Of a stretch of 24,921 nt of DNA, positions 6,283 to 24,921 are shown in pieces; positions within the stretch are counted from its first letter, which is position 1; every line of letters begins with the position of its first letter. The translations under genes were made by a program, and so were the position numbers. Source of the stretch: a virus; the IMG/VR virus record IMGVR_UViG_3300015371_003138, positions 1 through 24,921 of that record; one strand, 5' to 3'. Under the pieces are notes generated by a model that saw nothing but the letters and a program-made list of their open reading frames with translations, was not told the origin of the DNA and searched no databases.

Positions 6283-7659
6283 ATGCGAGAGAAGAGTCCT
6301 TCTGCGCCGACTCTGGTCATCGAAATGAGGCCGGTCGGCGCATTGCAACCCGATTCCAGGAACGCGCGCCTGCATCCGGAGCGTCACATCAAGCAGCTCG
6401 CCACGAGCATTGAAGCGTTCGGCTTCAACTGTCCGCTGCTGATTGATCGCGACGATCGTGTGATCGCCGGTCACGGGCGCCTGCTGGCGGTCAAGCACTT
6501 GGGTTGGCAGGAGGTGCCGATCATCCGGCTGGAGCACCTGACGCCGGAGCAAGTCCGCGCCTACGCTATTGCCGATAACCGACTCTGCGACGTGTCGACC
6601 TGGGACGAGCGCCTGCTCGGAGAGAATCTGAAAGAGCTCGCCGACGCGGATCTGAACTTCGACCTCGACGCCATCGGCTTCGATCTCCCGGAGATCGATC
6701 TGTTGATCCAGAGCCTGGGTGATGTCTCCGACGAACCTGACGACTCATCGAACATCGCTCCGGAAGGCCCGCCGGTCTCGGTCCTCGGCGATGTCTGGCG
6801 ACTCGGGCGACACCGGATCATTTGCGGCAACGCGTTGGAGCCAGAGACTTACAGGGACTTACTGGGCACTGCACGCGCGGCGATGACGTTTACGGATCCG
6901 CCGTACAACGTCCAGATCGACGGGCATGTCAGCGGCAAGGGGACGATCCAGCATCGCGAGTTCGCCATGGCCAGTGGCGAGATGTCGTCGCACGAATTTA
7001 CCGTGTTTCTGACGCAGTTCCTCGGCATGGCCAAGATGCACTGCGTCGATGGGGCACTCATCTATGCATGTATGGACTGGCGCCATGCGCGGGAGCTGAT
7101 CGCCGCCGGAGATGCGCAACAGCTCGACCTGAAGAATACCTGCGTGTGGGACAAGGGGTGCGGCGGCATGGGGTCGCTCTACCGCAGCCAACACGAACTT
7201 GTCTTCGTCTACAAGTCCGGCAATGGACCCCATACCAATAACGTGCAACTCGGCAAGTTCGGGCGCAACCGAACGAACGTGTGGTCGTATCCTGGCGTGA
7301 ACTCGTTTGCGCGCGAAACAGGCGAGGGCAACCTCTTGGCAATGCATCCCACGGTCAAGCCCGTGGCGTTGGTCGCGGACGCCATCCTGGATGCCTCGAA
7401 TCGCGGCGATATCGTGTTGGATCCATTCCTTGGGAGCGGCACCACCGTCATCGCGGCCGAGAAGACGGGCCGCGCCTGCATGGGCATCGAACTGGACCCG
7501 CGTTACGTCGACACGTCGATTCGGCGTTGGCAACGCTTGACCGGTCAGCGCGCGCTGCATGAAGCCACTAGCAAGTCATTCGATGCGCTCGCTCAGCAAC
7601 GAGCAGACGTTGGTCCGTTGGAAGCGCCAGAGGTTGCATGCATCGAGGAGGGGACATGA
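6283..7659 (+). CDS. ParB/Srx domain fused to beta-class DNA methyltransferase
   Basis: This 458-residue fusion begins with a ParB-like nuclease/NTPase domain (about 10-105; PDSRNARLHPERHIKQLA, then RVIAGHGRLLAVKHLGW). It continues into an N4-cytosine or N6-adenine methyltransferase. Motif order is beta class: TDPPYN with Asp205 first (motif IV), and LDPFLGSGTT at 379-388 later (motif I, SAM binding). HPTVKPV precedes motif I as usual. The target-recognition region lies between. It should methylate a specific DNA site using SAM. Such fusions are common in prophages and mobile elements, usually without a cognate nuclease, and may protect phage DNA or influence replication. AAAGGAG precedes the ATG at a good distance. 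The stop overlaps the DUF5681 start (ATGA), so the packaging-like genes are translated with it. Confidence 0.95.
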   Translation: MREKSPSAPTLVIEMRPVGALQPDSRNARLHPERHIKQLATSIEAFGFNCPLLIDRDDRVIAGHGRLLAVKHLGWQEVPIIRLEHLTPEQVRAYAIADNRLCDVSTWDERLLGENLKELADADLNFDLDAIGFDLPEIDLLIQSLGDVSDEPDDSSNIAPEGPPVSVLGDVWRLGRHRIICGNALEPETYRDLLGTARAAMTFTDPPYNVQIDGHVSGKGTIQHREFAMASGEMSSHEFTVFLTQFLGMAKMHCVDGALIYACMDWRHARELIAAGDAQQLDLKNTCVWDKGCGGMGSLYRSQHELVFVYKSGNGPHTNNVQLGKFGRNRTNVWSYPGVNSFARETGEGNLLAMHPTVKPVALVADAILDASNRGDIVLDPFLGSGTTVIAAEKTGRACMGIELDPRYVDTSIRRWQRLTGQRALHEATSKSFDALAQQRADVGPLEAPEVACIEEGT

Positions 7660-8060
7660 GTAAGAAGAAGTCGGACTACGTGGTGGGCTATGCGAAGCCG
7701 CCTCAACATTCTCGCTTTCAGCCTGGACAGTCGGGGAATCCAAAAGGGCGGCCGAAGGGCTCGTTGAACTTGGCTACCTCCGTCAACCGCGCGCTCAGGG
7801 AGAAGGTCGTCGTCATCGAGAACGGCAAGCGTAAAGCGATCACCAAGCTCGATGCAGCGCTTACGCAGATGACAAATCGTGCGGTCAAGGGCGATGCCAA
7901 GGCGATGCAGCAAATGCTGAGCATCGCTCATCTAGTCGGTGTGGAAACTCCCGTTGGAACTCCGGCCTTGGATGCGAATGACGCAGCGGTCATGGCGAGT
8001 TTGGCGCGGCGCCTCGGCATTCCGACACAAAAGAAGGATTCGATGAATGACCCGCACTGA
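7656..8060 (+). CDS. DUF5681 family protein
   Basis: This 134-residue basic protein starts at ATG 7656 behind GAGGAGGGG and overlaps the methyltransferase stop by 4 bases. It has the DUF5681 hallmark near its start: HSRFQPGQSGNPKGRPKGS, residues about 18-36. A helical region with KVVVIENGKRKAITKLDAAL and a run of small residues follow. The GRPKGS segment resembles an AT-hook-like DNA contact. The family often sits directly before terminase large-subunit genes, where it may act as a small-terminase-like or packaging accessory protein. That role is inferred from position, not demonstrated as far as I know. Confidence 0.88.
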   Translation: MSKKKSDYVVGYAKPPQHSRFQPGQSGNPKGRPKGSLNLATSVNRALREKVVVIENGKRKAITKLDAALTQMTNRAVKGDAKAMQQMLSIAHLVGVETPVGTPALDANDAAVMASLARRLGIPTQKKDSMNDPH

Positions 8061-8090
8061 ACCACGCCTTCCCCCTTCCAGGAGCAAGCC

Positions 8091-9545
8091 ATGAACCTGA
8101 CCCAAGACGAATTCGACGTGCTGCTGCGCAATGACCTGACGACTTTCATTGCCCGCACGTTCACGCACCTCGATCCCCAAACAACGTATTCCCACAATTG
8201 GCACATTGATCTGCTGGCCGATAGGCTGACGCAGGTCTACCAAGGTAATCTGCGGCGTCTAATCATCACCGTACCCCCGCGCAGCCTGAAATCCATCTGC
8301 GCCTCGGTCAGCTTTCCGGCGTGGGTGTTGGGCAAGGAGCCGTCCAGGCGGATCATCTGCGCCAGTTACGGCCAAGAACTGTCCAATAAGCTGGCCCGCG
8401 ACACCGCGGCGGTCATGTCGTCAGATTGGTACCAGCGGGCTTTTGCGACTCGGCTCGCCGCGCAGCGCTCGGCGGCGGCGGACTTCGAGACCACCCAGCG
8501 GGGTGGTCGAATGGCGACCTCGGTCGGCGGCGTGCTGACGGGTCGCGGCGGCGACATCATCATCATCGACGATCCGGTCAAGCCTGATGAGGCCTTGTCC
8601 GAGGCGCAGCGCCAAGCCGCCAACGACTGGTTTGACAACACGCTCTACACCCGCCTCAACGACAAGCGCACCGGTGCGATCGTAATCATCATGCAGCGGC
8701 TGCATCTGGACGATCTGGTCGGCCACGTCCTGGAGAAGGAGGCGTGGGAAGTCGTCAATCTCCCGGCGATTGCGCAGGAGGACGAGACCTGGAACTACGG
8801 CACGCTCGTTGGTAGGAACCGCTACCTGCGTCCCGCAGGTGAGTTGCTGCATCCGGATCGTGAGCCGCGAGAGGTGCTAGATGGACTTCGCAGCGCGCTC
8901 GGGGAATACAGCTTCTCGGCGCAGTACCTGCAGGCGCCGGTCCCGCTGGGGGGCGGCATCGTCAAGGCGGAATGGCTGTCGTATTACGCGCCAGCCGAGA
9001 AACCGGAGAAGTTCGACACGATCGTCCAGAGCTGGGATACCGCGAACAAAGAGAGTGAGCTTGCGGACTACAGCGTCTGCACCACGTGGGGCGTGAAGAA
9101 CAAGAACATGTATCTGCTGCATGTCCTGCGGAAGCGCATGAGCTATCCGGACCTGAAGCGCGCGGTGGTGGCCCAAGCAGAAGCATGGAATGCGCGCGCA
9201 GTCCTGATCGAGGACAAGGCCTCAGGCATCCAGTTGGTCCAGGAGCTGCGGGAGACCTTGTCGCGCGTGAAAGGCATCAAGTGCGAAGGCGACAAGTTGA
9301 TGCGCATGCTGGCGCAAACGCCGGAAATCGAGAATGGCCATTTGCTGCTGCCGAAGGATGCACATTGGCTGCCCGACTATGTGCAGGAGCTGACGACGTT
9401 CCCGAAGGGCAAGTACGACGACCAGGTTGATTCCACAGCGCAGGCGTTGAAGTGGATCACTGGCGAGGGCAGGGAGCCGGGCCTGCTGGTGTACTACCGA
9501 CAGGAATGCGAACGACTCGGAATTCAACTGCCACCGCGCACATAA
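8091..9545 (+). CDS. terL: Phage terminase large subunit
   Basis: This 484-residue protein has both halves of a terminase. The ATPase half has a deviant Walker A TVPPRSLKS (60-68), a Walker B run DIIIIDDP (155-162) and a coupling segment IIMQRLHLDDLVGHV. The RNase H-like nuclease half includes QSWDTA, VLIEDKASG and the final GKYDDQVDSTAQAL acidic cluster. The protein should package or cut concatemeric DNA for a phage-like particle. AGGAG lies 6 bases before the ATG. No portal, protease, capsid or tail gene follows; the next genes are a restriction-modification island on the other strand. The gene looks intact, so it may serve a satellite-like element that borrows a helper's particle, or it may be a recent remnant. 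Confidence 0.95.
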   Translation: MNLTQDEFDVLLRNDLTTFIARTFTHLDPQTTYSHNWHIDLLADRLTQVYQGNLRRLIITVPPRSLKSICASVSFPAWVLGKEPSRRIICASYGQELSNKLARDTAAVMSSDWYQRAFATRLAAQRSAAADFETTQRGGRMATSVGGVLTGRGGDIIIIDDPVKPDEALSEAQRQAANDWFDNTLYTRLNDKRTGAIVIIMQRLHLDDLVGHVLEKEAWEVVNLPAIAQEDETWNYGTLVGRNRYLRPAGELLHPDREPREVLDGLRSALGEYSFSAQYLQAPVPLGGGIVKAEWLSYYAPAEKPEKFDTIVQSWDTANKESELADYSVCTTWGVKNKNMYLLHVLRKRMSYPDLKRAVVAQAEAWNARAVLIEDKASGIQLVQELRETLSRVKGIKCEGDKLMRMLAQTPEIENGHLLLPKDAHWLPDYVQELTTFPKGKYDDQVDSTAQALKWITGEGREPGLLVYYRQECERLGIQLPPRT

Positions 9546-9674: not shown

Positions 9675-9689
9675 AGTCGACGGTCGACT
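9675..9689. repeat. Palindrome AGTCGAC-g-GTCGACT
   Basis: A perfect 7-bp dyad with a single central base overlaps the stop codon of the vsr gene (9688-9690, minus strand). It lies at the border between the phage-like module and the restriction-modification island. Function unknown; a protein-binding site or recombination scar are possibilities. Confidence 0.5.
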
Positions 9690-10179
9690 AGGCATCAACA
9701 TTATCGCTCTCCACCTTGGCGTGTTTGCCTCCACCGCCTCTGATTTCGATCGTTGGTGAGCTTTCGCCTAGCCACTGAGCCACATCGAGCGCGACCTCGT
9801 TCGCGTTAGCCAACTTGCCGCGTAAAGCGCACTCCCACACCACGGCGATTCGCCAACCCAAGGCAGATAGGGCCTGCTCGTTTCGGTTATCGATTGCGCG
9901 ATTACGTTCGATCTTCGCCAGCCAGAACTCGGGGCGAGTGGCAGGCACCTTAAACAACGGACAATCATGGCCATGCCAGAAGCATCCGTGGACAAAGACT
10001 ACTGCCTTGTAGCGGGGCAAGTAGATATCCGGTTTGCCTGGAAGATTTCGCTCATGGAGGCGGTAACGGAAGCCGAGGGCGTGCAGTGCCCGGCGTAACA
10101 CCATCTCCGGCTTGGTGTTCGCGGAGCGGATGCCAGACATCATCCGGCTCCGTACCTCGGCTGACACGACATCTGCCAT
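9688..10179 (-). CDS. vsr: Very short patch repair endonuclease Vsr
   Basis: This 163-residue protein is a near-canonical Vsr. The catalytic KPD has Asp51, matching the residue number in E. coli Vsr, and FVHGCFWHGH places His64, Phe67, Trp68 and His69 in the known metal-binding and mismatch-intercalating positions. SRMMSGIRSANTKPE and a Cys/His zinc site (Cys66, His71, Cys73) also fit. It nicks beside T:G mismatches that arise when 5-methylcytosine deaminates. It begins 6 bases after the methyltransferase stop and has no good ribosome binding site of its own, which implies translational coupling. The C-terminus is slightly extended with a Gly-rich tail. Some Vsr-fold proteins serve as the restriction nuclease itself, so that remains a second option. 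Confidence 0.95.
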   Translation of the reverse strand: MADVVSAEVRSRMMSGIRSANTKPEMVLRRALHALGFRYRLHERNLPGKPDIYLPRYKAVVFVHGCFWHGHDCPLFKVPATRPEFWLAKIERNRAIDNRNEQALSALGWRIAVVWECALRGKLANANEVALDVAQWLGESSPTIEIRGGGGKHAKVESDNVDA

Positions 10180-10185
10180 GACGAT

Positions 10186-11445
10186 CTACGCGGCCACGTT
10201 CAATCGGGGCTGCATGACTCCACCGGCCTCCCGGCCTTTCAGTTCGACGATTCGGGGCGCCATGATTTTGGCGACTGCTTCCATCACGTCCACCACAACG
10301 CTATTGCCAAACTGTTTGTAGGCCTGCGTGTCGCTCACGACGATCTCAAAGTCATCGGGAAAACCCATGAGGCGCGCGCATTCGCGCGGCGTGAGTCGCC
10401 GGGGCCGTTTCCCCTTGCCGCGATAAATCAGAATCTCACTGCCATCCTTGTAATAGCGGGCCGAGAGCGTACGGGTATAACGGTGCTCTCCAGGCTTAAC
10501 AAGTCCATATCCAAATCCATTTCCCGCCGCCTGGTGTTTGGCCGCATAGCTCTTGAGGTACGTCCATAAGTTCTCGGTGAGAACATATTTTGGATTCACC
10601 TTGGACAATGGCCCGGAAGTGAAGGGGCCCTCGGCCGGCTCGCTGCCATCTTCGGGGTGCAGGATCTGTGTGATGTCTGGCCCTTGTTCGGGAAGCCGCA
10701 AATCCTCCCAAGTGAAATCTGTGTTGTCTCGGAAACCGACGATAAGAATTCGCTCCCGGTGCTGCGGCACGAAGTGCTTTGCGTCAACAACTTTGTAGTG
10801 AATCCTGTAGCCCAGCTTGTTCTCCAGAACATCCCTGATTACGCGGAACGTGTTCCCTTTGTCGTGGCTGACCAGATTCTTGACATTTTCAAGCAAGAAC
10901 GCCTTGGGGCGCTTTGCGGCGATGATTCGCTCAATGTCGAAGAACAGAGTCCCTTGCGTCGTACAGTCAAATCCATGAGGACGACCTAGCGCATTCTTCT
11001 TGCTCACGCCGGCCAGTGAAAATGGCTGGCACGGGAAGCCCGCCAGCAACACGTCGTGATCCGGTACGTCGTTCGCGTCCACCTGGGTGATGTCACCGAC
11101 GATCGGATGATGCTCACCGAAATGGTTCCTATATGTCCGGCATGACCATTCATTCCATTCGCTGGTGAACACGCATCTGCCGCCCGCTCTCTCGAACCCC
11201 ATTCGAATGCCGCCGATCCCCGCGAAAAGATCAATGAACGAGAAGGCGGAATCTTCGGCCTGAGCCGACTTGCTGACCCCAAGGATTTCCTGGAGAGCAG
11301 GTACGACCATCGGCGGGCAGCGCGTTTCGCCGCGCTCCCACCTCGAGATGGTGCGGGAGGTGGTCTGCAGGCGCTCGGCGACCCTCTGCTGAGTCATCAG
11401 CTGGCGAACCTTAAGAAGGAGGTCGCGAGGACTCAATTGGCTCAT
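10186..11445 (-). CDS. DNA cytosine-5 methyltransferase with N-terminal HTH
   Basis: This 419-residue protein joins an XRE-like helix-turn-helix (about 8-58; TQQRVAERLQTTSRTISRWERGE) to a complete cytosine-5 methyltransferase. Visible motifs are I, DLFAGIGG (72-79); IV, GFPCQPFS with catalytic Cys139; VI, ENVK (186-189); VIII, QHRER (228-232); and X, QFGNSVV near the C-terminus. The recognition region lies between about 240 and 340. It would protect host DNA from the divergent restriction genes. Methyltransferases with an N-terminal HTH often repress their own promoter and sometimes the restriction genes. Here a GACAG-T-CTGTC dyad lies 25 bases upstream of the start. AGAGG precedes the ATG. 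The vsr gene follows directly. Confidence 0.96.
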   Translation of the reverse strand: MSQLSPRDLLLKVRQLMTQQRVAERLQTTSRTISRWERGETRCPPMVVPALQEILGVSKSAQAEDSAFSFIDLFAGIGGIRMGFERAGGRCVFTSEWNEWSCRTYRNHFGEHHPIVGDITQVDANDVPDHDVLLAGFPCQPFSLAGVSKKNALGRPHGFDCTTQGTLFFDIERIIAAKRPKAFLLENVKNLVSHDKGNTFRVIRDVLENKLGYRIHYKVVDAKHFVPQHRERILIVGFRDNTDFTWEDLRLPEQGPDITQILHPEDGSEPAEGPFTSGPLSKVNPKYVLTENLWTYLKSYAAKHQAAGNGFGYGLVKPGEHRYTRTLSARYYKDGSEILIYRGKGKRPRRLTPRECARLMGFPDDFEIVVSDTQAYKQFGNSVVVDVMEAVAKIMAPRIVELKGREAGGVMQPRLNVAA

Positions 11446-11469
11446 GCATTGCCTCTGGGTATTTTTCCG

Positions 11470-11480
11470 GACAGTCTGTC
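11470..11480. promoter_or_regulatory. GACAG-t-CTGTC dyad, candidate methyltransferase operator
   Basis: An 11-base perfect dyad sits 25 bases before the methyltransferase start and overlaps its putative -10 box. Its symmetry suits a dimer of the XRE-like N-terminal domain of that methyltransferase, giving autoregulation. The link to the protein is inferred. Confidence 0.5.
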
Positions 11481-11501
11481 TGACGAGATTCCCCCGGTCA
11501 A
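11473..11501 (-). promoter_or_regulatory. Candidate promoter for the methyltransferase-vsr operon
   Basis: On the minus strand TTGACC (11496-11501) is followed after 17 bases by CAGACT (11473-11478), a weak -10 that keeps the key A and T positions. The -10 lies inside the GACAG-t-CTGTC dyad, so bound repressor would block it. Confidence 0.4.
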
Positions 11502-11733
11502 CAGGCTAAGTGGGCGCCAAGGGGCTGGTGGAAGCGGGGAAGGCGCGGCATGCCTAAGGCATCATGGGCCGTCATCGTCATGAAGGCTGATCTCACCTGC
11601 CGAGATGCAGGACTCCGACCATGTGCCTGGTCGAGGGCGAGCACCTGGACGCGTGTTTAGTCCGAGTGCCAGAATGCTTTGGGGTTCTGGCTTCGTGTAC
11701 CGGTGGCAGGGGTGATTTTCGGTAGGGAGCGAC

Positions 11734-13638
11734 GTGACGGGGCGGGTGAATCAATTTCCACGATGGGAACGGCGCGACAGGGCGCTCTTTCTCGTAGATG
11801 CAGAAGGGACTGAGGTCCATTCGACGGCGGATGATATTTATCGCGCCCTGGTCGAACGACAGCCCATTGAGGGAATGGTCGAGGGTCGCGCTCCCCCAGG
11901 CCTCAAGTTCTCCCGGTACCCCCTGATTCCCGCGCTTGTGCTGGAATTGAATGAAGACGGACACCCCGAACTTACTCTGCGAGGGCAAAGTCGGGGGACG
12001 GTGGAAGCACTATCAGTTGTCGATCTTGCCCGTGGCCATGTAGCACTGGGAGACACCTGGTATCCGATTGACGCAGTTGTTTCGTCGGAAATCGCTGAAC
12101 TGTTGAAGGACGCCTCCGCCGCACTCGGCGCGTGCTCACTGCAAACCTTTCTCCGCATGCGCACGATGGCTGCGGCAGATGGTCCAGTGGAAGATCTGAT
12201 CGGCGACAGGTCAGTTTCCCCTCTCGCTTTTACCCCTTCCGGCGACGACCAGCCTCGCGTTGACGCCAGGCTCTATCCCTATCAGCTTGCTGGCTGGCGC
12301 TGGTTGCGTTTCATTCGCGCCGAAGGCTTGGGCGGTCTGCTTGCAGACGAGATGGGCTTGGGCAAGACCCTGCAGGTTATCGCCGCGATCCGTGATCCTG
12401 GCGCGGATGCCCGCGGGCCATGCCTGATAGTCGCTCCCGGGTCGCTTCTGGAGAACTGGCGGAGGGAGTTCGCGCGATTCGCGCCAACGCTGAGCACGCT
12501 AAAGCACCATGGGCACTCCCGCACTGGGCGCCCTGCCGAACTGCAAGAGTACGACGTGGTGATCACGTCCTATGAAAATGTAGTTCGGGACAACAGCCTG
12601 CTCAACATGATTGAGTGGGACATGGTCGTGCTCGACGAGGCGCAGTTCATCCGGAACCCAGACGCGCAGAGAACCAGGGCCGCCAAGCGCCTACGTCGCC
12701 GCGTGGGGATTGCCGTGACCGGCACTCCCGTTGAAAACCGCCTGCTGGACCTGTGGTCCATAATCGATTTCGTGCTTCCCAACCAGCTGGGAGACCGCCA
12801 GTCATTCGAGGCAAATGTCCACGATGATGTGGAAAGCGCAAGCCGCCTTGAGTCCGAAGTCTCACCTTTCATGTTGCGTCGCCGCCTGGCGGATGTGGCC
12901 CAGGATTTGCCGGAACGGATTGACATTCCCCAAGTCATCGATCTCTCCGAAGAAGAAGCAGTCCTCTATGACGAAACGCGAGATCGAATTGCGAACGAAT
13001 ACGGCGCAGCGGCCACGCTAGTAGCGCTGACCGAGTTGCGCCAGTTCTGCGCTCATCCGGAGCTGCTACTCAAGAATGCCGAGAGTGACCCACTGCGTTT
13101 CAGCAAGTTCCAGCGCCTTGACGAGATCCTGCGGGAAATCTTCCAAAGAAACGAAAAGGTCTTGGTCTTTACCTCGTTCACGGGTATGGCCGACATGATT
13201 GCCGAGCACGTGAAGTTCTCCCTGCACGCCTTCGTGGGAATTATCGACGGGCGTCTTCCGATCGATGAACGTCAGCCTCTCATCGACCATTTTTTTGCTG
13301 TGCAGGGGGCTGCCGCGCTCGTCCTCAACCCGCGTGCGGGTGGCGCCGGCCTAAATATCACCGCGGCCAACCATGTAATTCACTACAACCCGGAGTGGAA
13401 TCCCGCCCTCGAGGATCAGGCCTCGGCTCGCGCCCACCGACGAGGTCAGGAGTTGCCTGTGACGATCCATCGCCTCGTAGCAGCCGATACGGTCGAGGAT
13501 GTGATTGCCGAACGTCTTCAGCGAAAGCGCGCAATTGCAGACACTGCCGTCGTGGGCGTCGCCGGCAAGGACGACGACTACGCAGATATCATTTCGGCGC
13601 TAAGCCGTTCGCCGTCACGCAAGAAATTGGGGTCCTGA
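11734..13638 (+). CDS. SNF2/SWI2-type ATPase (DEAQ helicase-like)
   Basis: This 634-residue protein starts at GTG 11734, with AGGGAG 4 bases upstream. After an N-terminal region of about 170 residues unique to this subgroup, it has a full Snf2 motor. LYPYQLAGWRWL precedes Walker A DEMGLGKT (205-212). The second RecA-like motif is DEAQ (301-304), followed by VTGTPVENRLLDLWSI, then LVFTSFTGM, NPRAGGAGLNITAANHV and QASARAHRRGQ (562-572). Such motors translocate on duplex DNA and remodel bound proteins. In R-M operons they likely move the restriction complex to tell modified from unmodified DNA. The stop shares one base with the next start (TGATG), so the five-gene operon is tightly coupled from here. 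It is divergent from the methyltransferase. Confidence 0.95.
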   Translation: MTGRVNQFPRWERRDRALFLVDAEGTEVHSTADDIYRALVERQPIEGMVEGRAPPGLKFSRYPLIPALVLELNEDGHPELTLRGQSRGTVEALSVVDLARGHVALGDTWYPIDAVVSSEIAELLKDASAALGACSLQTFLRMRTMAAADGPVEDLIGDRSVSPLAFTPSGDDQPRVDARLYPYQLAGWRWLRFIRAEGLGGLLADEMGLGKTLQVIAAIRDPGADARGPCLIVAPGSLLENWRREFARFAPTLSTLKHHGHSRTGRPAELQEYDVVITSYENVVRDNSLLNMIEWDMVVLDEAQFIRNPDAQRTRAAKRLRRRVGIAVTGTPVENRLLDLWSIIDFVLPNQLGDRQSFEANVHDDVESASRLESEVSPFMLRRRLADVAQDLPERIDIPQVIDLSEEEAVLYDETRDRIANEYGAAATLVALTELRQFCAHPELLLKNAESDPLRFSKFQRLDEILREIFQRNEKVLVFTSFTGMADMIAEHVKFSLHAFVGIIDGRLPIDERQPLIDHFFAVQGAAALVLNPRAGGAGLNITAANHVIHYNPEWNPALEDQASARAHRRGQELPVTIHRLVAADTVEDVIAERLQRKRAIADTAVVGVAGKDDDYADIISALSRSPSRKKLGS

Positions 13639-14054
13639 TGGAGCGTCAGATCGCAAAGTTGCTCAGTGCCAATGACACCGGCGAAACAGGTGGGCATCAG
13701 GCGGGGATTCTGATTCCTCGAGACAATCAACTGCTGTCTTTTTTTCCCGCCCTTGATCCTGGCGTGCTGAACCCGCGATGCCACATCCGCTTCGTGGACG
13801 AAACAGGAACGTTCTGGGAATTCGCCTTTATCTATTACAACAACAAGTTTTTTGGGGGCACCAGAAACGAGTACCGGCTGACGCGAATGACAAAGTTCAT
13901 CAGGCAGGCGGGTCTGGTGCAGGGGGATGATCTCGTGCTAACGGAAAACAACGGCAGGTACCGCGTCAACGTTCGCCGGAAGAGAGACGCATCCGCGCAG
14001 CAGAGTGGTGTCCTCAAACTGGGAAGTGGTTGGCGTGTCGTCAAACTAGGTTGA
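13638..14054 (+). CDS. EcoRII-N/B3-like DNA-binding protein
   Basis: This 138-residue protein starts at ATG 13638, overlapping the SNF2 stop by one base. LLSANDTGETGGHQAGILIP (8-27) and NKFFGGTRNEYRLTRMTKF match what I know of the EcoRII N-terminal effector-binding domain, a DNA-binding pseudobarrel related to plant B3 and NgoFVII C-terminal domains. A GDDLVL strand and a basic C-terminus follow. There is no nuclease catalytic motif, so this is a stand-alone recognition subunit, possibly giving sequence specificity to the GHKL/HNH restriction machinery. In EcoRII the domain is fused to the nuclease, so separation into its own gene is notable. Fold assignment is by motif memory and moderately sure. 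Confidence 0.8.
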   Translation: MERQIAKLLSANDTGETGGHQAGILIPRDNQLLSFFPALDPGVLNPRCHIRFVDETGTFWEFAFIYYNNKFFGGTRNEYRLTRMTKFIRQAGLVQGDDLVLTENNGRYRVNVRRKRDASAQQSGVLKLGSGWRVVKLG

Positions 14055-14067
14055 TAAGGGGATTGCA

Positions 14068-15675
14068 ATGACTGTTGAGGAGTTTGAGCTTCCGCCTGAT
14101 CCGGAACGGGTCATCGTTGGTTTGCGCGATACCGGCTACGAGTTTGAAACGGCGGTGGCGGACATTGTTGATAACTCTATTGCTGCCAATGCCACCAAAG
14201 TGGATCTATGGCTCGGCGCTGACCACCGGGGCAACATCCGGCTGTCAATCGTGGATAACGGCGACGGGATGGATCGCCTTGGCCTGATCAACGCAATGCA
14301 GTACGGCTCAAGGGCGCGACCCAGTGCCGCGAGCTTGGGCAAGTATGGGTTGGGTCTGAAGACGGCCTCCACGGCATTCTGCAAAAGGCTTTCCGTGGTC
14401 TCCCGGCCTGACGGAAAGACTTCTCCGTTGATGGCGACGTGGGACCTCATGCACGTCGCTCATGCAAAGAAGTGGTCGCTCCTGCTTACGGCTGACTGTG
14501 ATCCGGAGGCCATTGAATACCTCGATGAACTGGCGCCCGGCCACTCGGGCACGGTTGTGCTGTGGGACGACGTGGACCGTCTGATAAAGGAATACCAGAA
14601 CAGAAATGGCACGCCCGCAAAGAAGGCCCTCCGCACAAAAGAGGCTAGCCTTCGCCGCCACCTTGCGATGGTGTACCAGCGCTTCCTTGATCCAAATGAC
14701 ATGCGCGCCCGCGATGTCACGATTCGCCTGAATGGCGCAGCCGTGGACGCATGGGACCCGTTCCAGCGAGGGCTCTCCGAGCTGGTGGCTCAGGAAGAAA
14801 TCGTTACGGAACTGCCGGACGGAAAAAAAGCTGCGTTCACGGTGCGCGCCTACATTCTTCCTCGCCGGGAAGAGTTTCCGGACGACAAATTGGCGCAGGC
14901 GGCCCAACTTTCGAACGACCGGCAGGGCATCTACATCTATCGCGAAAATCGATTGATTCACGACGCCGACTGGCTGGGCCTCTATCAGAAGGAGCCGCAC
15001 CTCACGTTGCTGCGAGTCGAATTCTCCTTCGACCATAAGCTCGACGATGCGTTTCACCTCGACATCAAGAAGTCGCAGATCATTCTCAACGATGATCTGG
15101 CCGAGTGGCTGCAGAAGCAGTTTCTTCCTGCTCCTCGCAGGGAGGCAAACAATCGTTCGCGAGAGGGCCAGCAGAAGCGAATTACCCAGCAGAGCGCCGG
15201 TGCGCACGACAACTCCAACAGCAACATTCGGAACCGGCAGGCCGCCGCGGGCGGCGCAAGGGTAACCGCAACCGATCCATCGAAGGGGGAGGCGGAAATC
15301 CAGAACAAGCATGGCGTCTTCCGGCTGAAGTTGCCGCTATCAACTGCCAAACGCCCCGGCGAGGTATTTGTCCAGCCCGTCGAAGGCATCAACAATGGCT
15401 TGCTGTTTCAACCTGCGCTGGTTGACCAAAACCGGGCGGTGCAGCTGAACACCAGTCACCCCTACTATCACAAGGTGTACGTCCCAAATCTCAACCGAAG
15501 CGTCACGCTGCAGGGACTCGATTCACTCATGTGGGCTTTGTGCGTTGCCGAACTGACCACTGTCCAGGACACAACCGCCAGCATGTTCCAGGACATGCGC
15601 TACGAGATTTCACGCATTCTGGAGAAGCTCGTGGAAACGTTGCCCGAGCCGGGAGCGGATGAGGATGACGCTTAA
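14068..15675 (+). CDS. GHKL ATPase, MutL/MORC/Hsp90-like
   Basis: This 535-residue protein begins with a GHKL ATP-binding domain. The N-box is VADIVDNSIAANA (30-42; Asp32 stands where many relatives have Glu, and Asn36 should bind Mg). G1 is VDNGDGM (62-68) and G2 is GKYGLGLKTAS (91-101). A transducer-like S5 region follows, with RQGIYIYRENRLI and DIKKSQI, its Lys probably contacting the ATP gamma phosphate. A low-complexity Gln/Asn/Ser-rich linker (about 352-395) leads to a C-terminal domain, perhaps for dimerisation. ATP binding would close a clamp on DNA. This is the type described in MutL/MORC-like R-M systems. AAGGGG precedes the ATG, and the gene overlaps the HNH gene by 17 bases. Confidence 0.93.
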   Translation: MTVEEFELPPDPERVIVGLRDTGYEFETAVADIVDNSIAANATKVDLWLGADHRGNIRLSIVDNGDGMDRLGLINAMQYGSRARPSAASLGKYGLGLKTASTAFCKRLSVVSRPDGKTSPLMATWDLMHVAHAKKWSLLLTADCDPEAIEYLDELAPGHSGTVVLWDDVDRLIKEYQNRNGTPAKKALRTKEASLRRHLAMVYQRFLDPNDMRARDVTIRLNGAAVDAWDPFQRGLSELVAQEEIVTELPDGKKAAFTVRAYILPRREEFPDDKLAQAAQLSNDRQGIYIYRENRLIHDADWLGLYQKEPHLTLLRVEFSFDHKLDDAFHLDIKKSQIILNDDLAEWLQKQFLPAPRREANNRSREGQQKRITQQSAGAHDNSNSNIRNRQAAAGGARVTATDPSKGEAEIQNKHGVFRLKLPLSTAKRPGEVFVQPVEGINNGLLFQPALVDQNRAVQLNTSHPYYHKVYVPNLNRSVTLQGLDSLMWALCVAELTTVQDTTASMFQDMRYEISRILEKLVETLPEPGADEDDA

Positions 15676-16540
15676 CGCGGGGTCTCTCGCGGCCCGGATC
15701 TCCGCAGAAACCGGGCTGGAATTTTCAGGGAGCGGCGGGAGGGCGGCGGACGGCACGCATTCGTATCAGCTGCGGCCCGCGCATCATCCCGCAGCGCATA
15801 CGTTCGTCCTGCACGTGCAGGTCGGCTGGCGAAACATTGACCTTTCCTTTCGCCCCGGAAGCTTTTCAGGTGAACTGATCCAGGCGATGGGAGAGGCTGA
15901 CCGAAGCGGCCAGGCTGCATTTGTTTCAGTCCTTCGCAGCAATCAGGAAAACGGCGCTCAGATCGACTTCGATTTGAATGGTCAGCGATGCCCTTATGAC
16001 GCCGCGGGTATTTGGGCCCTGTCCTGGCAGAACATGACGCTGTCGATGCGCAAGGGAATGCTGCCCATCAACGATGGGAACGCGGCAGCAGACGAAGAAA
16101 TTGTCGGTAGCTGGGTAGCTCGTTTGACCGCCGCAATCGTGGCATTGCTACCGTTGGAGGCAGATGAGGATCTAGATATCGTCAATCCTGCCGAAACCGC
16201 GACGGGGCTTCCTGAGGGGGCAAGAATTGCGGTGATCGTGAACCGTTATGAGCGTGACCGTCGAAACAGGGCCGCCGCATTGGCGATTCACGGCCATGTC
16301 TGCAAAGCATGCGACACCGACATGGGATATCGATATGGTTCAGCGGCTGCAGGCCTCATTGAAGTTCATCACGTCACGCCGGTCTCGCAGATTGGTCCAG
16401 ATCACCTCGTCGACCCGCGGACGGACCTTGTGCCGCTTTGCCCCAACTGCCACGCAGTAGCCCATCGGCGCGATCCCCCGTACACCGTTGCGGAGCTGCG
16501 CGCTTTGATAAATATCGCCACCGCGGAAATCATCGTATGA
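15659..16540 (+). CDS. HNH endonuclease of the restriction operon
   Basis: This 293-residue protein has an HNH nuclease domain at its C-terminus. CKAC (215-218) and CPNCH (261-265) hold structural zinc, IEVHHVTP (234-241) carries the catalytic His, and CHAVAHR ends the beta-beta-alpha-metal fold, as in McrA-type nucleases. The N-terminal 170 residues form an unrecognised domain that probably binds DNA or the partner ATPase. GGGAG lies just upstream; ATG 15659 or the in-frame ATG 15665 (better spacing) could be the start. The gene overlaps the GHKL gene by 17 bases and the HEPN gene by 4 bases, so the products should be made in fixed ratio. It is the best candidate for the DNA-cleaving subunit of the system. 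Confidence 0.93.
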   Translation: MRMTLNAGSLAARISAETGLEFSGSGGRAADGTHSYQLRPAHHPAAHTFVLHVQVGWRNIDLSFRPGSFSGELIQAMGEADRSGQAAFVSVLRSNQENGAQIDFDLNGQRCPYDAAGIWALSWQNMTLSMRKGMLPINDGNAAADEEIVGSWVARLTAAIVALLPLEADEDLDIVNPAETATGLPEGARIAVIVNRYERDRRNRAAALAIHGHVCKACDTDMGYRYGSAAAGLIEVHHVTPVSQIGPDHLVDPRTDLVPLCPNCHAVAHRRDPPYTVAELRALINIATAEIIV

Positions 16541-18720: not shown

Positions 18721-18918
18721 CTAAGGCGCGTCCCGCTCGGCAATCTCCCTCTGCTTCTGCAAGCGGTCTCGAGCGTTTTCCCGCGGCCGCGGCTCACGCC
18801 AGGCAACTGTGTTCCATGCCTGCTTCGCATATGGCTCCACTTCGCTCCAGGTCTGCCCCGGGTAGGTTCGTCCGAGAATCTGAATGAACCTGGCATGCAA
18901 CTCGGTATCGTAAGGCAT
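18721..18918 (-). CDS. Small protein with W-x2-V-x6-AW motif
   Basis: This 65-residue hydrophilic protein contains YPGQTWSEVEPYAKQAW (about 19-35), followed by a charged coiled-coil-like tail (RPRENARDRLQKQREIAERD). The same W-x2-V-x6-AW pattern occurs twice in the protein at 21463. Its start lies 8 bases after the stop of the upstream gene at 18927 on the same strand, so the two form a small operon. I do not know a function. Related short motifs occur in small stress-type proteins of Xanthomonadales, which is a weak family hint. Confidence 0.65.
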   Translation of the reverse strand: MPYDTELHARFIQILGRTYPGQTWSEVEPYAKQAWNTVAWREPRPRENARDRLQKQREIAERDAP

Positions 18919-19893: not shown

Positions 19894-21045
19894 TCAACGC
19901 AACAGCCTGTCGATAACGCTCGGGGGTGTTTCGAAGTTCAAGGTCTTGCGGGGCCGTTCGTTGAGCTGCCTGGCGACTTCATCGAGCTTGTCCTGGGAGA
20001 ACACGGACAGGTCGATGCCTTTCGGGAAGTACTGCCGCAATAGGCCGTTGGTGTTCTCGTTCGACCCACGCTGCCAAGGACTCTGCGGATCGCAGAAGTA
20101 GACCTGGATGTCGGTCGCTAGCGTAAAGCGACGATAGTCGGCCAGCTCCTTGCCGCGATCCCAAGTCAGGGATTTGTAGAGCTCGTTGGGGAGCAGACGT
20201 GCAGTGCGGATCAGCGCAGCCACGACGGTCTGCGTGTCCTTGCGGTCAACCTTCACCAACATCACGTAGCTGCGTGCTGCGCTCGACCAACGTGGCGATC
20301 TGGCTGTTGCCGCTGCCGCACAACAGGTCGCCCTCCCAATGCCCGGAACGGCGCGATCCACGACGTCGGCTGGGCGCTCGCGGATCGACACGGTGTCGCT
20401 GATCCGGCCGTGGTCGCTGGTCTTCTGCGTGTGGTGGCGCGAACGACGCATCGCCCGCGTGCGCCGCAGGTGCTCCAGCAATTCCTTCCTCAGCGCGCCA
20501 CGCGACTGGATGAAGAGCTGTGCGGTAGACACCCGGCAGGTCGCATCGCCCGGATAGGTACGAATCAACCAACCTGCGATCTGCTGCGGCAACCAGCGCT
20601 GTTGCAGCTTGTCCGCCACCCGTTCCGCCAGCGTGGGATGCAGTGCCAGCTTACAAGTCTTCGGCCGATGCGCCCGGTCCCCCATGCCGCCTGGTCTGCA
20701 AGGCTTGCGCGATACCGCTCGGCGCCGCCGTTGCGTCGGATCTCCCGGCTGATCGTCGACGGCGCCCGGCCCAGCGTTGCCGCAAATCGCGCGAATGGAT
20801 TGCCCGACCGCCAGCGCCGCGAGACGTCTTCGCGCTCCGACAGGCTCAGCGCTCGAATAGAGCGACGTCGCGCTGGCGGTCGAATGCCGCCGGTCTCGAC
20901 GATGATCCCCCACGTCGGCGTCGCGGAAAACACGATGGTCGCCTACACGACCGAACGGCGCGGAAGGCATGAGCTGGCCCGCGGCGGCACCACGCCGTTC
21001 CGCAGCGAGAAAGCGACGAACTGGGAGCGTGGCTTCCGCGTGCCG
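19894..21045 (-). mobile_element. IS30-family transposase, broken by several frameshifts
   Basis: Read on the minus strand, segments in different frames build one IS30 transposase. The HTH region SLSEREDVSRRW and PSTISREIRRNGG comes first (about 20850-20720), then RAHRPKTCKLALHPTLAERV and LPQQIAGWLIRTYPGD. The DDE core follows: GHWEGDLLCGSGNSQIATLV, LTWDRGKELADYRRF, and SPWQRGSNENTNGLLRQYFP. The chain changes frame near AAW/DRAHRP, near VPG/HWEGD and again just before YVMLVKV, so at least three indels are needed. The stop is at 19894-19896. Terminal repeats were not resolved; the left end may include the bases just below 19894. The transposase cannot be functional. Confidence 0.85.
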
Positions 21046-21264
21046 TGCGCGATCCGCTGGCCCTCGCATTGGGGCTCACGAGACTTCATTCACTGCGCGC
21101 TTGCCAAGACCGCAACGCGCGCCTCGTTGCGTTGCCACCGTCGCCGTCACACTGGGCAAGGAGAAAGGGTCCATAGTGAAGTCCGCCTCGCATCAGCGAT
21201 GGCTCTCGGACGCTGCCTGACCGCTCCGCCCCTGAGGGTGCTAAGCGGTCCATTGGTGGCACGA

Positions 21265-21453
21265 ATGAAAATTAATAGACGCAACGTCGCGCGCAGAGTG
21301 AATAGCATTCTGCGGGCCCTTGAGCAAAAGCCTGGGCCGAGCCCCGCTCGCAACGGCTGGCCTGAGTTATCGCTCGACCCGCTTCTACGGCGACGCAAGA
21401 ACGATGCCGGGCCTTGGCATCCTCACGGGCCACCTGACGACTGGAAGCGATAG
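21265..21453 (+). CDS. Small WHPxGPP-motif protein, copy 1
   Basis: This 62-residue basic protein starts at ATG 21265. Its second half, NGWPELSLDPLLRRRKNDAG and then WHPHGPPDDWKR, is clearly paralogous to the protein at 24407 (SGWPPLPTTPDCRRRKTDAL, WHPEGPPNEWER). Two copies with the same motif spacing strongly support a real coding family. The motif (GW, RRRK.DA, WHP.GPP, W.R) is short and Trp/Pro-rich; I do not know its fold or role. It is 9 bases upstream of the 21463 gene, and the two probably form an operon. A decayed copper-protein gene lies opposite at 21976-22272. Confidence 0.7.
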   Translation: MKINRRNVARRVNSILRALEQKPGPSPARNGWPELSLDPLLRRRKNDAGPWHPHGPPDDWKR

Positions 21454-21462
21454 GGGGCGAAG

Positions 21463-21912
21463 ATGAAACATTACGTGCTCTCCGCTGCGGTGAACTTGGC
21501 AGTCGATAATTACCTAAGGAACTTGAGGGCTGCCTTTCCGTCCACGCCATGGGCTGGAGTACAGCATTACGCAGAAAGAGCATGGTTCGCCGCTGACAAG
21601 CCAGGGGTTTCGTGGGATCAGGTCGAACCACGCCTAAGGGATGCATGGAACGGACAAGGCACTGGCATCGCCCCTATCCAGGGGGCTGCGATCCCGGATC
21701 GAGAACCAGGACCACGGCAGAACTTGCATCGATCCGTGAATCTTCCTGGACCACGTACGGCCGGTGAAGCCAAGATTCCAAGCAACCATGACGCCGTAAC
21801 AGATGCGGAGTACGAAGAATGGTCGGTGGGGCGGCGTTTCCTTCAGGATCAAACAAAGTCTGGCCGAGCACCCTTCAGGGATCCACAATTGGACTATGGA
21901 TCGCACGGGTGA
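21463..21912 (+). CDS. Protein with two W-x2-V-x6-AW repeats
   Basis: This 149-residue protein starts at ATG 21463 behind GGGGGCGAAG. The N-terminal third has two repeats: FPSTPWAGVQHYAERAWF (about 25-42) and PGVSWDQVEPRLRDAWN (about 47-63). They match the single repeat in the protein at 18721. The rest is polar and probably disordered, with Pro- and Arg-rich stretches. No membrane segment is visible. Repeat conservation supports coding, but the C-terminal part beyond about residue 70 could be read-through of a decayed end, because the region downstream is disrupted. Confidence 0.65.
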   Translation: MKHYVLSAAVNLAVDNYLRNLRAAFPSTPWAGVQHYAERAWFAADKPGVSWDQVEPRLRDAWNGQGTGIAPIQGAAIPDREPGPRQNLHRSVNLPGPRTAGEAKIPSNHDAVTDAEYEEWSVGRRFLQDQTKSGRAPFRDPQLDYGSHG

Positions 21913-21975
21913 TTTGCCGTCTTACTCTAACGAGGCGACATATCCGCGCAGTTCTCTGCGCAAAGGCGGCGCGCT

Positions 21976-22272
21976 TCAACGCAATTGGCCAGGGTCGCCT
22001 AACCGGCTACATGAAGCCGTGCATTGCTCGCATGGATGCTCAGGCTGCACAGGTGTAGGAATGGACGTCGGCCCCTCGAAGCATGGGGTCTGCACTGGTC
22101 ATGCAATGTCTGAGCACGAAGCGAGCAACGTAATGTGGTGCGCTTCAGCATGTCTGCCCCCTTTTCTTAGGCAGTAGTTGATGGCCTCGACACAGGCCAT
22201 ATGGCAAGCCATGCAGCGGGCGACGCATCGATTCATTTCGATGCTGCGATGGTCGGCGAAGTCACGAGTCAC
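21976..22272 (-). pseudogene. Decayed four-helix-bundle copper-binding protein gene
   Basis: Read on the minus strand from a GTG at 22270-22272, EMNRCVARCMACHMACVEAI and HHITLLASCSDI align with the intact protein at 24616 (EMALCIANCTQCHAACIEAI, RHITLLASCADI). A stop then interrupts at 22099-22101. The homology resumes in another frame as TSADPMLRGADVHSYTCAA, and after another shift as CEQCTASCSRLGDPGQ, ending at 21976. At least two frameshifts are needed. The gene was a second copy of the copper protein, inverted relative to the intact one. The coding potential is lost. Confidence 0.8.
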
Positions 22273-22786
22273 GACGCACTCCGTCTGGAACCCAGGATCA
22301 AACTGACCAATCAGTTCCCTAGAAATCCGGCCGGCTGGCAGAATGACCAAACCTCCTGCGCAGTGGCGTCAGCAGCCAGCTTTCACTCTCGGCAGTAGGC
22401 AAACGGATCGCTTCTTCGTCGGGACCGTCAACCTTCGCAGGGTGAGCAAAGGACATAGAGATCGCGGGGCGGAGCCCAACGCCAGCACACCGCGGCGGGT
22501 TAGCGCAGAGACAGTTCGCAGCTCGGCGGGATGTCGAGAGACGCGAAATGGCGCGGTTAGATACATACGGTGGGCCGGCGACTGTGACTTTGCAGTGACC
22601 CGCGGGCGATCACGACCCGCCTTGGCGGCGAACTCGATATAGAAGCAGCCACGCGGACTATGCTCCCGCACATCTTCTTCAGACGGGCGGGAGGCTATTG
22701 CCGAGAATTAGGCGTAGTGTGAACTCGCACTTGGCCACCGACGCCATGCATCGAGCCTCCGTGCAGCTCTCCTCGGGTGCGCTCGC
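22273..22786. other. Region without a supported gene
   Basis: About 500 bases between the copper-protein pseudogene and the next plausible gene. Frames of about 100 codons exist on both strands but have no motif, no clear ribosome binding site and atypical composition. Given the decayed neighbours this is probably degraded sequence. Confidence 0.5.
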
Positions 22787-23149
22787 ATGACCATCGATAT
22801 CTACTCTCGCGCAGTTGGCCCATGGCTGCTGGTGCCGGCGTGTTTGCTTCCATCACATGCGGCATCCTTCGCGTTCGGCCCTTTGACTTACGCTGGGTCA
22901 ATTTCGGCGACCAAGCTTTCGCTTGGCAAGCAGCTCGCAGCGCTCGCGGCTTTCGACGCTTTCAGCTTTGCAGAAATATCGCCCGACGAGGCCATGGTTC
23001 TCCTGCGGTCAGGATCTATTGTCCCCAAGCGGGATCGCTACGTCAGTCGAATTGGTCCTCGTAGCGAAGTTCGACTCCTCTCGGCTGCATTGTCGGCAGC
23101 GGAGTACGAGGGTTGGCCATCGCAAGCGCAGGTCGAGCGTGCACGATAG
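22787..23149 (+). CDS. Uncharacterised protein, possible gene
   Basis: A 120-codon frame from ATG 22787 has codon use close to its neighbours. The N-terminus is hydrophobic (VGPWLLVPACLLPSHAASFA), a possible weak export signal or buried core. The middle is Ala/Leu-rich (GKQLAALAAFDAFSF), and the C-terminus contains SPDEAMVLLRSGSIVPKRD and SAAEYEGWPSQAQVERAR. No ribosome binding site is obvious. I recognise no family. It lies 45 bases before the next gene. Confidence 0.45.
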   Translation: MTIDIYSRAVGPWLLVPACLLPSHAASFAFGPLTYAGSISATKLSLGKQLAALAAFDAFSFAEISPDEAMVLLRSGSIVPKRDRYVSRIGPRSEVRLLSAALSAAEYEGWPSQAQVERAR

Positions 23150-23194
23150 GCGCTCTGCGCCGGTCATTTATGGGGCGCCCTAGGAGCAGGCAAG

Positions 23195-23569
23195 ATGGAT
23201 AACGAACGGTCCAGCAATATTGAAGGCAGCAACGACGCTGATAAACATGCCGCGGCTACGTTAGCGGCGGCATTGATCGCGCATGGCTTTACGCTTCCCG
23301 CTGCAACCAACGCGGCGATGGCAGCCGAGCAGGCCGTCGATTTGTACCGCGCGGTCCTGGGAAATCTGCGCAATTTGGAAACGGGCGCGGAGGGCGCGTC
23401 GATGCACACGCCAGTTGAAGCGATCTCGCCCAGGGAGCAGGAAGAGATGGACATCCTGGGCGTAAGTCGTGTGGACTCCGCCAAGTTCTGCTTCGGCGCC
23501 TACCGTTACGACAATCTGAGCGATGCACTTCGCTACGCGCGGGGCAAATCGCAAACATCGTCAACTTGA
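23195..23569 (+). CDS. Uncharacterised soluble protein
   Basis: This 124-residue protein starts at ATG 23195 with AGGAGCAGG upstream. It is largely helical: DADKHAAATLAAALIAHGFT and NAAMAAEQAVDLYRAVLGNL, then an acidic segment (SPREQEEMDILG) and an aromatic-rich end (FCFGAYRYDNLSDALRYARG). There is no signal peptide, membrane segment or catalytic motif that I can name. Codon usage and the start signal support a real gene. Confidence 0.65.
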   Translation: MDNERSSNIEGSNDADKHAAATLAAALIAHGFTLPAATNAAMAAEQAVDLYRAVLGNLRNLETGAEGASMHTPVEAISPREQEEMDILGVSRVDSAKFCFGAYRYDNLSDALRYARGKSQTSST

Positions 23570-23774
23570 TGTCGCCTCAGGAGCGCAACCGTCGCGCGCT
23601 CGTCACCACGCTGGTCCTATTGTCACTGAGCACCTGGTAGCAGGATGCCTACCACGGCGGCACTCACCGACTTGCGACCCCGCCTTTGAGCCTCCGAAGC
23701 CTGTCCACAGGCTGCCCATCATTGGCTACGGCCATCACGATCCAGCGACTTGGATCTCTCGCAAGGCAACTTCC

Positions 23775-23951
23775 ATGACGAACCCCAACACGAGCCAAGA
23801 CAACGCCCAGCCCGGCCAACCCGGCCAGACGGGCTCGAACCCGGATCAGGCGCGCACCGATGCGAAGCAATCTGCAGCGGCCGATGCCAAATCGGACGAT
23901 CAAAAGTCCGCTCCGACGCAGAGCGATGCGGCGGGGACTTCCCGACGTTAA
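23775..23951 (+). CDS. Short low-complexity hydrophilic protein
   Basis: A 58-residue frame from ATG 23775 encodes a protein rich in Gln, Asp, Ala, Ser and Pro (NTSQDNAQPGQPGQTG, AKQSAAADAKSDDQ), almost free of hydrophobic residues. It is probably intrinsically disordered and similar in style to small stress-related proteins. A good terminator follows 22 bases after the stop, supporting a transcription unit ending here. The start signal (AAGGCAACTTCC) is weak. Confidence 0.55.
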   Translation: MTNPNTSQDNAQPGQPGQTGSNPDQARTDAKQSAAADAKSDDQKSAPTQSDAAGTSRR

Positions 23952-23973
23952 TCGCGGCCAGGCACGCGGCACA

Positions 23974-24005
23974 ACGAAAAACGGGGCAAATGCCCCGTTC
24001 TTCGT
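23974..24005. terminator. Intrinsic terminator, nearly symmetric
   Basis: AACGGGGCA (23980-23988) and TGCCCCGTT (23991-23999) form a perfect 9-bp stem with a 2-base apex. After one mismatch the stem extends by ACGAA/TTCGT, with A-rich and T-rich flanks. It should end the transcript from 23775, and the symmetry would let it act in both directions. Confidence 0.75.
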
Positions 24006-24026
24006 CGGCGTCTAACACGGTGCGGA

Positions 24027-24410
24027 ATGCGCAGATTCAGTGCTCAGGTGTTCGTGCTCTCTTCTCTCGCGTGTGCGATGCCCTCGATCGGTATTGCCCA
24101 GCACGACCGACATCTAGAGCTGCTACGGATTGACTACCACGCGTGCGTTTCAGCTCGCGCCAGTCGCAATCTGGCTGCTGGCAAGCTACCCGATGAAATA
24201 GTCGAGCAAGCGATCGAGACCTGCTCGAACCAGTTCGAGAGACTGTCCGCGGGCATTCTGTTTGCATTTGAAGCAGAAGCTGGCGCGTCGGCGATTTCCC
24301 AAATATTCGCTACGGAGAAGGCTAACGCCGAGGTCGCGCGTAACGCGCAGCAGGCACGCAGAGAAGCCGCCTTGATCGCCTCCAAAGCGATGGAGGCAAC
24401 ACGACCATGA
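24027..24410 (+). CDS. Secreted/periplasmic protein of the copper-protein operon
   Basis: This 127-residue protein has a likely signal peptide. MRR is followed by a hydrophobic core (FSAQVFVLSSLACAMPSIG) with cleavage plausible after IGIAQ. The mature part is helical and Ala/Glu-rich, with two Cys (YHACVSARAS, IETCSNQFERL) that could form a disulfide. The C-terminal helix is EVARNAQQARREAALIASKA. I know no family. Its stop overlaps the next ATG by 4 bases and that gene overlaps the copper protein in the same way, so the three are translationally coupled. A role linked to metal handling in the periplasm is inferred from this context only. Confidence 0.7.
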   Translation: MRRFSAQVFVLSSLACAMPSIGIAQHDRHLELLRIDYHACVSARASRNLAAGKLPDEIVEQAIETCSNQFERLSAGILFAFEAEAGASAISQIFATEKANAEVARNAQQARREAALIASKAMEATRP

Positions 24411-24619
24411 ACATTCCGACCCTTACGCAAAGTCGTTCTCGTGCGCGGGCGATGCTTGAGAACCTTGGCCACGGCCATGCGACCACCAGGAGCGGTTGGC
24501 CGCCTCTTCCGACTACCCCGGATTGTCGGCGGCGCAAAACGGATGCACTTCATTGGCATCCCGAGGGACCGCCAAACGAGTGGGAGCGGCCGCCAGGTTT
24601 TTCGGGAGAGCACAGATGA
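24407..24619 (+). CDS. Small WHPxGPP-motif protein, copy 2
   Basis: This 70-residue protein starts at ATG 24407, overlapping the upstream stop, and overlaps the copper-protein start by 4 bases. RSGWPPLPTTPDCRRRKTDA and LHWHPEGPPNEWERPPG match the paralog at 21265 over about 35 residues. The N-terminal 30 residues differ but are likewise basic (SRSRARAMLENLGHGHA). The tight coupling to a copper-binding protein gene makes a partner or regulator of that protein worth considering. No known domain. Confidence 0.75.
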   Translation: MNIPTLTQSRSRARAMLENLGHGHATTRSGWPPLPTTPDCRRRKTDALHWHPEGPPNEWERPPGFSGEHR

Positions 24620-24921
24620 ATCGCCTCTCCGCTGACAATCGCAGTGCGGAAATGGCCCTATGCATCGCCAATTGCACCCAATGCCACGCCGCCTGCATCG
24701 AGGCAATCCGCTATTGCCTGCTGAAAGAGAAAGGGTACGCGCAGGAGCGCCACATAACGTTACTCGCTTCCTGCGCCGACATTTGCTCTACGAGTGCAGA
24801 CACCATGCTTCGTGGGGCAGACGTCCATTCGTACACATGCGCTGCGTGCGCTTCCATCTGCGAGCAATGCGCGGATTCGTGCAGCCGTTTGCGCGATCCC
24901 GAGATGACGAAGTGTGCCGAA
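24616..24921 (+). CDS. Four-helix-bundle copper-binding protein (partial, runs off window)
   Basis: From ATG 24616 (overlapping the previous stop) 102 codons are visible and the frame is open at the edge. The Cys spacing is that of Csp/DUF326-type copper-storage four-helix bundles: CIANCTQCHAACIEA, CLL, ASCADICSTSAD, CAACASICEQCADSC. Many Cys point into the bundle core and can bind several Cu(I) ions. There is no signal peptide, so this looks like a cytosolic Csp3-like form. A decayed paralog lies at 21976-22272. The visible part covers most of the usual length of about 110-135 residues. Confidence 0.9.
   Translation, partial: MNRLSADNRSAEMALCIANCTQCHAACIEAIRYCLLKEKGYAQERHITLLASCADICSTSADTMLRGADVHSYTCAACASICEQCADSCSRLRDPEMTKCAE

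Follow-up and report, generated by a model that had tools for sequence, protein, structure and literature searches.

The closest described systems of which we are aware are the lineage-restricted orphan small proteins of bacteria, which are shorter than 80 amino acids (aa), patchy in distribution, without a profile in family libraries and found in accessory neighbourhoods. Here we describe a family that shares these traits, represented by two genes, P0001 and P0002, in a virus record (IMGVR_UViG_3300015371_003138; its whole 24,921-base stretch is called the window below). Unlike orphan proteins of that kind, this family has a C-terminal motif of about 35 residues that is well conserved, and several of its genes share an upstream element. 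An earlier note on this DNA had announced a new small-protein family linked to copper-binding proteins. The family is borne out by 14 further members in 12 genomes, by the lack of a profile-library match and by purifying selection. The link to copper proteins holds as a local, lineage-specific arrangement and not as a general one, as a gene for a copper-storage protein (Csp) adjoins only 2 of the 16 members. The two window genes are the following (members elsewhere are named after their genomes; G576 carries three, G576a, G576b and G576c):

21265..21453, plus strand: P0001, family member of 62 aa; closest relative G625, 59% over 63 aa
24407..24619, plus strand: P0002, family member of 70 aa, overlapping the Csp gene by 4 nucleotides (nt); closest relative G576a, 61% over 62 aa

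Both open reading frames (ORFs) are present as first described. In a single comparison, 24 of 52 residues are identical (46%, E = 9e-14), so the two proteins are homologous and, judged by sequence, they are paralogs in one uncatalogued family. The motif spacing reported for the pair, GW-x9-RRRK-x-DA-xx-WHPxGPPxxW, is indeed the same in both. However, this two-member motif over-states the constraint, because WHP is kept in 5 of the 16 members (the others have WHL, WFP, WFR, WLP, WRP, WYP, WNA, WSP or WSS) and RRRK occurs in P0001 and P0002 alone.

Our alignment A3 holds 16 sequences, the two window proteins and the 14 from other genomes (the G681 gene, present on two contigs, was counted once). 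The members are 60-78 aa long and net basic in every case (K+R > D+E in 16/16); their N-terminal part varies and their C-terminal peptide is conserved. The core motif is GWPxL-x6-RRRxTDAxPW-x8-WKR, within a consensus tail RxGWPPLSxTPxxRRRxTDAxPWxPxGPxDxWKR. In P0002 numbering, the columns M1, W31, P32, W50 and W59 are invariant, and G30, R43 and R61 nearly so; no Cys, His or internal Met is invariant among the aligned members that could serve as a conserved metal ligand. The ratio of nonsynonymous to synonymous differences (pN/pS) was 0.32-0.72 in nine pairs, a sign of purifying selection, and the members therefore look like selected genes. That they arose as ORFs by chance, or are remnants of mobile elements, is a notion we find barely credible: P0001 and P0002 do lie in a region with an IS30 element and broken genes, and a rough codon score picked out only two of the members (G609 and G606), but the pN/pS values, the alignment and the similar length of all 16 largely refute it.

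The family matched no entry in the libraries searched. None of the 16 members matched a Pfam or NCBIfam family at E ≤ 0.1, a profile of them had no match among Protein Data Bank sequences at E ≤ 1, and the window proteins, the only ones compared with these two libraries, had no match in PHROG (E ≤ 0.1) or PADLOC (E ≤ 1e-5). Among the papers listed in literature searches, motif strings included, none dealt with the family, most papers in subscription journals being outside their coverage.

No relatives of P0001 and P0002 turned up in plasmids, phages, viral contigs or genome contigs of named species in single-protein and two-member searches. Nothing was found in viral contigs with the G485 protein or A6 as query, nor in plasmids with the G485 protein. 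Pattern scans returned 19 stretches with WHPxGPPxxW in viral contigs and 13 with DAxxWHPxGPP in genome contigs, all of which were chance matches when their translations were judged by eye. The relatives were reached by a search centred on a Magnetococcales genome and guided by the Csp protein, which led to a group that we call Xanthomonadaceae-like: the guide genome G095 belongs to the family of G576, and its Csp shows no difference from a Xanthomonas plasmid Csp across the aligned part. With a two-row profile, true members were found in 3 of 397 genomes of the order (G576, G485 and G220), after 3 of 6 rows (G270, G277 and G423) had been dropped as chance because the motif was missing on translation. 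By the same rule, a seven-row profile left members in 12 of 395 genomes of one Xanthomonadaceae-like family, a count that follows by-eye judgement, 5 of 17 genomes (G572, G612, G430, G651 and G659) having been dropped. Among 274 genomes sampled from the class, G576 alone matched, besides two weak rows out of three (G1108 and G1113) that lacked the motif on translation and were judged chance. Five rows in G001 from another search (best E 0.07) were left out of the counts. Members are present in three of the five genomes of G576's genus. As far as searched, the family is thus restricted to one Xanthomonadaceae-like family, in which it is patchy.

The second trait that sets the family apart is a short sequence upstream of its genes, of which the window copy is:

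21172..21179, plus strand: CATAGTGA, a CATAGTGG-like element ahead of P0001

The pattern [CG]ATAGTG[GA] is present ahead of 7 of the 16 members (in the window and at loci L059, L085, L090, L091, L093 and L094), 29-113 nt from the start codon, and within 150 nt upstream of none of 183 control genes from the same loci. In an unbiased test, the 8-mer CATAGTGG itself proved common to 5 of 14 upstream regions (the 16 minus two operon-internal members), and 1 of 500 mononucleotide shuffles did as well. No known promoter type could be assigned to it, and no sigma-70-type promoter was found in 20900-24921. Longer forms were tried as marks of a wide regulon and rejected. GCAC-N15-19-CATAGTGG occurred three times in 12 genomes, against seven for the reversed control, and two of the three occurrences precede members whereas the third does not; CGCATAGTGG occurred 10 times in four genomes, against 11. 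Since the longer forms are no commoner than their reversed controls, the element may be specific to the family, and it is possibly its promoter. A hairpin in the leader, built from four sequences, has 18 pairs, two of them with two-sided changes, and a covariation term of -0.44; we do not claim it. An Rfam scan of the window matched the tRNA alone.

The csp3 gene of B. subtilis is described, in a Sci Rep paper of 2016 (PMC5171941), as up-regulated under stress-inducing and spore-forming conditions. The copper gene beside P0002 is this one:

24616..24921, plus strand: four-helix copper-storage protein of the Csp type, 102 codons, cut by the window end; matches solved Csps

Its product has as best match 3lmf, an 'uncharacterized protein' (E = 1.5e-11), and it also matches the solved copper-storage proteins 6zif (RkCSP3, E = 1.3e-8) and 5fig (CSP3, E = 1.1e-3). 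By these matches and its cysteine richness (13 Cys in 102 residues), it qualifies as a predicted Csp3-type protein. The reading frame runs into the window end, and the G576 relative has 117 codons. No Pfam or PHROG model matched, and no NCBIfam model did so above its cut-off; viral contigs held no relative and phages two weak ones. The window and G576 proteins are 80% identical and come out as sisters (100/99 in a rough bootstrap, not settled), apart in the tree from two Xanthomonas plasmid Csps, whose genes come after those for copB, cytochrome c, an NTF2-like protein and DUF411.

As the earlier note had it, P0002 is coupled to this gene through a 4-nt overlap (ATGA). Csp adjoins window P0002, where it lies downstream, and G576a, where it lies upstream: G576 has an EGWP ORF (a small protein also found in the window), Csp and the member overlapping in that order, as opposed to member before Csp in the window. 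A survey of the family and its neighbours, which the earlier note had called for, thus supports the family and leaves these two as the only members adjoining Csp. The 12 members outside the window and outside the two-member island of G576 have no Csp within the available flanks, which are shorter than 6 kb on one or both sides for P0001, P0002, G220, G823, G685 and G681; the P0002-like member of G639, from G576's genus (56% over 63 aa), has none within 6 kb. Since most relatives are found without Csp nearby, the gene beside P0002 looks local. The earlier note had accepted that homologs mostly away from copper-protein genes would speak against its proposal, and this is the situation for Csp, the one copper gene searched for: 7 of the 12 member-bearing genomes lack it. 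Judged by Csp, the link to copper does not extend to the family as a whole.

Could the family nonetheless be an accessory of Csp, for example an adaptor, a targeting factor or a copper-handover protein, with the Csp-less members being leftovers or serving other copper proteins? We consider this improbable. The 4-nt coupling in opposite orders fits it, as do the sister position of the two coupled Csps, the fact that 95% of 200 bootstrap trees separate the two Csp-coupled members, as a group, from the remaining labelled ones, and an enrichment of Csp in member-bearing genomes (5/12 at E ≤ 1e-4, compared with 58/395 genomes of the family, in 70 places, at E ≤ 1e-15). However, among those 395 genomes only 1 of the 70 Csp places, that of G576, adjoins a member found by the seven-row profile, and a motif scan of about 1.5-3 kb around 37 Csp loci (35 from sampled genomes, 2 from plasmids) gave one member, again in G576. 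The lack of an invariant Cys, His or internal Met also speaks against a role in copper handling. To our knowledge, and from the papers listed in a literature search, no Csp accessory protein is known.

The other features of the window island are as follows:

21463..21912, plus strand: 'AFP/YAERAW' protein, predicted helical, 149 aa, 9 nt after P0001
21991..22272, minus strand: broken copy of a Csp gene, interrupted by a stop codon and continuing in other frames in its second half; it lies about 540 nt beyond P0001
22787..23149, plus strand: 'EGWP' small protein of 120 aa, its resemblance to the G625 island and G576 judged by eye
23195..23569, plus strand: p23195, 124 aa, with relatives in the islands of G576 (pieces), G625 and G639
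23775..23951, plus strand: small hydrophilic ORF (MTNPNTSQDNAQ...), by eye likely disordered; similar-looking ORFs near the G639, G220 and G675 members
24027..24410, plus strand: protein of 127 aa with, by eye, a signal-peptide-like start

The decayed copper gene said to lie close to P0001 does exist, but it is on the minus strand and the gene at 21463-21912 stands in between. P0002 also overlaps the preceding 127-aa gene by ATGA, a coupling missing from the earlier note; the 127-aa protein matched no family in Pfam, NCBIfam or PHROG. The G625 island has the same order as 21265-23569 (member, helix-predicted protein, a weak EGWP-like match, p23195-like protein) and contains no Csp; its EGWP match concerns the tail of the protein and is to the G576 ORF (E = 8e-4). 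The G576 island likewise holds a member with a helix-predicted protein, p23195-like pieces and EGWP. From this shared layout, the repeated association with copper genes, which had been taken to suggest functional linkage, is better read as the history of one island, so that the window does not offer two independent cases of it. An IS30-family transposase gene (19894-21069) has a relative in the G625 island (L085 1357-2526) and would be a possible means of island movement.

The helix-predicted protein is the commonest direct neighbour, standing directly downstream on the same strand in 4 of the 16 members: at spacings of 1-26 nt in the window, G576b, G576c and G625. The window protein had no match in Pfam, NCBIfam or PHROG, and a model of this type of protein (predicted local distance difference test score, pLDDT, 39.5) was too weak for a fold search. 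The close spacing would suit a two-gene unit, for example partner and chaperone or toxin-antitoxin-like, with Csp as a passenger. However, 12 of the 16 members lack this neighbour, the window pair has no PADLOC match, and co-expression alone would explain the pairing, so that we regard such a unit as doubtful at best. The protein at 21463-21912 also belongs to a set of partly alike small proteins with a W-x2-VEP-x4-AW pattern (18721-18918 in the window, L085 3280-3489 and L086 10455-10649); the window pair is 34% alike, and those tested matched no family.

Other neighbours change from locus to locus. A FAS1 gene lies within 2.4 kb of 4 of the 16 members (G576a and G576b, which share one gene, G220 and G823), an Hsp20 gene once, 2.1 kb from the G625 member, and small hydrophilic ORFs, by eye, near four. 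In 2 of the 16 (G685 and G675), the next same-strand gene downstream, within 0.4 kb, codes for a histidine kinase. Pfam confirms FAS1 (PF02469), HSP20 (PF00011) and the PAS/HATPase kinases. No neighbour is obligatory among the types tested. The kinases, together with the net basic charge, the RR/RRR core and the conserved upstream element, could point to a small protein that binds nucleic acids or takes part in signalling, in concert with the kinases and the element; this is unlikely, as such a kinase accompanies 2 of the 16 members only and the element does not behave as a wide regulon motif. In the member tree, none of the 13 inner branches is well supported, and we therefore claim no subfamilies; next-gene labels cluster on it with 2 changes, a number equally low in 3 of 200 shuffles.

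We favour the reading that these small basic proteins form an orphan family, restricted to one lineage and located in accessory islands of a stress type, with a C-terminal peptide that docks. As a whole this is tentative, at somewhat less than an even chance, and its descriptive part is much firmer. The members occur in changing neighbourhoods with the helix-predicted protein, FAS1 proteins, a divergent Csp clade, histidine kinases and once Hsp20. From these neighbours, at a minority of loci, we infer accessory stress islands. The members would then be small proteins induced by stress or in stationary phase, their Trp/Pro/Arg-containing C-terminal peptide may dock on a shared partner in the cell, be it a protein or a nucleic acid, and in one lineage Csp may have been captured into the same transcription unit for co-expression, not as the docking partner.

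Several points weigh against this reading. The term 'stress-induced' is drawn from the neighbours only, and five members (G485, G609, G638, G606 and G681) have no recurrent neighbour in the available sequence. A model of P0002 from two sequences has one helix of at least 4 residues (6-21), a mean pLDDT of 59 and low confidence in the motif region; it is too weak for a fold search or as proof of disorder. The upstream element was spotted by eye before it was counted in the same data, and three of its seven copies (P0001, G576c and G625) lie in alignable, non-independent leaders. In addition, the five member-bearing genomes with Csp exceed the 1.8 expected (hypergeometric P = 0.02, kinship ignored), and an adaptor role would also explain the coupling to Csp in both gene orders. 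A bolder form of the favoured reading, which we think very unlikely, makes the C-terminal peptide a portable docking motif that ties co-expressed stress proteins (the Csp clade, FAS1, the helix-predicted protein and the kinase) to one partner, Csp having been recruited in one lineage; if true, copper storage would be linked to a general stress structure.

Elsewhere, the window carries a tRNA-Lys, a large serine-type integrase, a methyltransferase and a phage-type terminase large subunit (within 432-503, 2604-4298 and 6283-9545), and it is probably an integrative element with the small-protein island in its right part. Genes at the left end (634-2017) resemble those for dCTP deaminase and dCMP deaminase, below curated cut-offs. 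A defence-type cluster (9688-16540) contains a Vsr nickase, a C5 methyltransferase, an SNF2 helicase (ZorD/DpdE-like), a 219-aa type II restriction-enzyme-like protein, an MzaB-like ATPase and a type IV restriction-enzyme-like protein.

Finally, the analysis yields a constrained and uncatalogued family of small proteins whose motif and upstream element lend themselves to testing, and the results speak against calling this family 'copper-linked'. If the Csp coupling in G576-like strains is functional, the member concerned would be an accessory protein for Csp.

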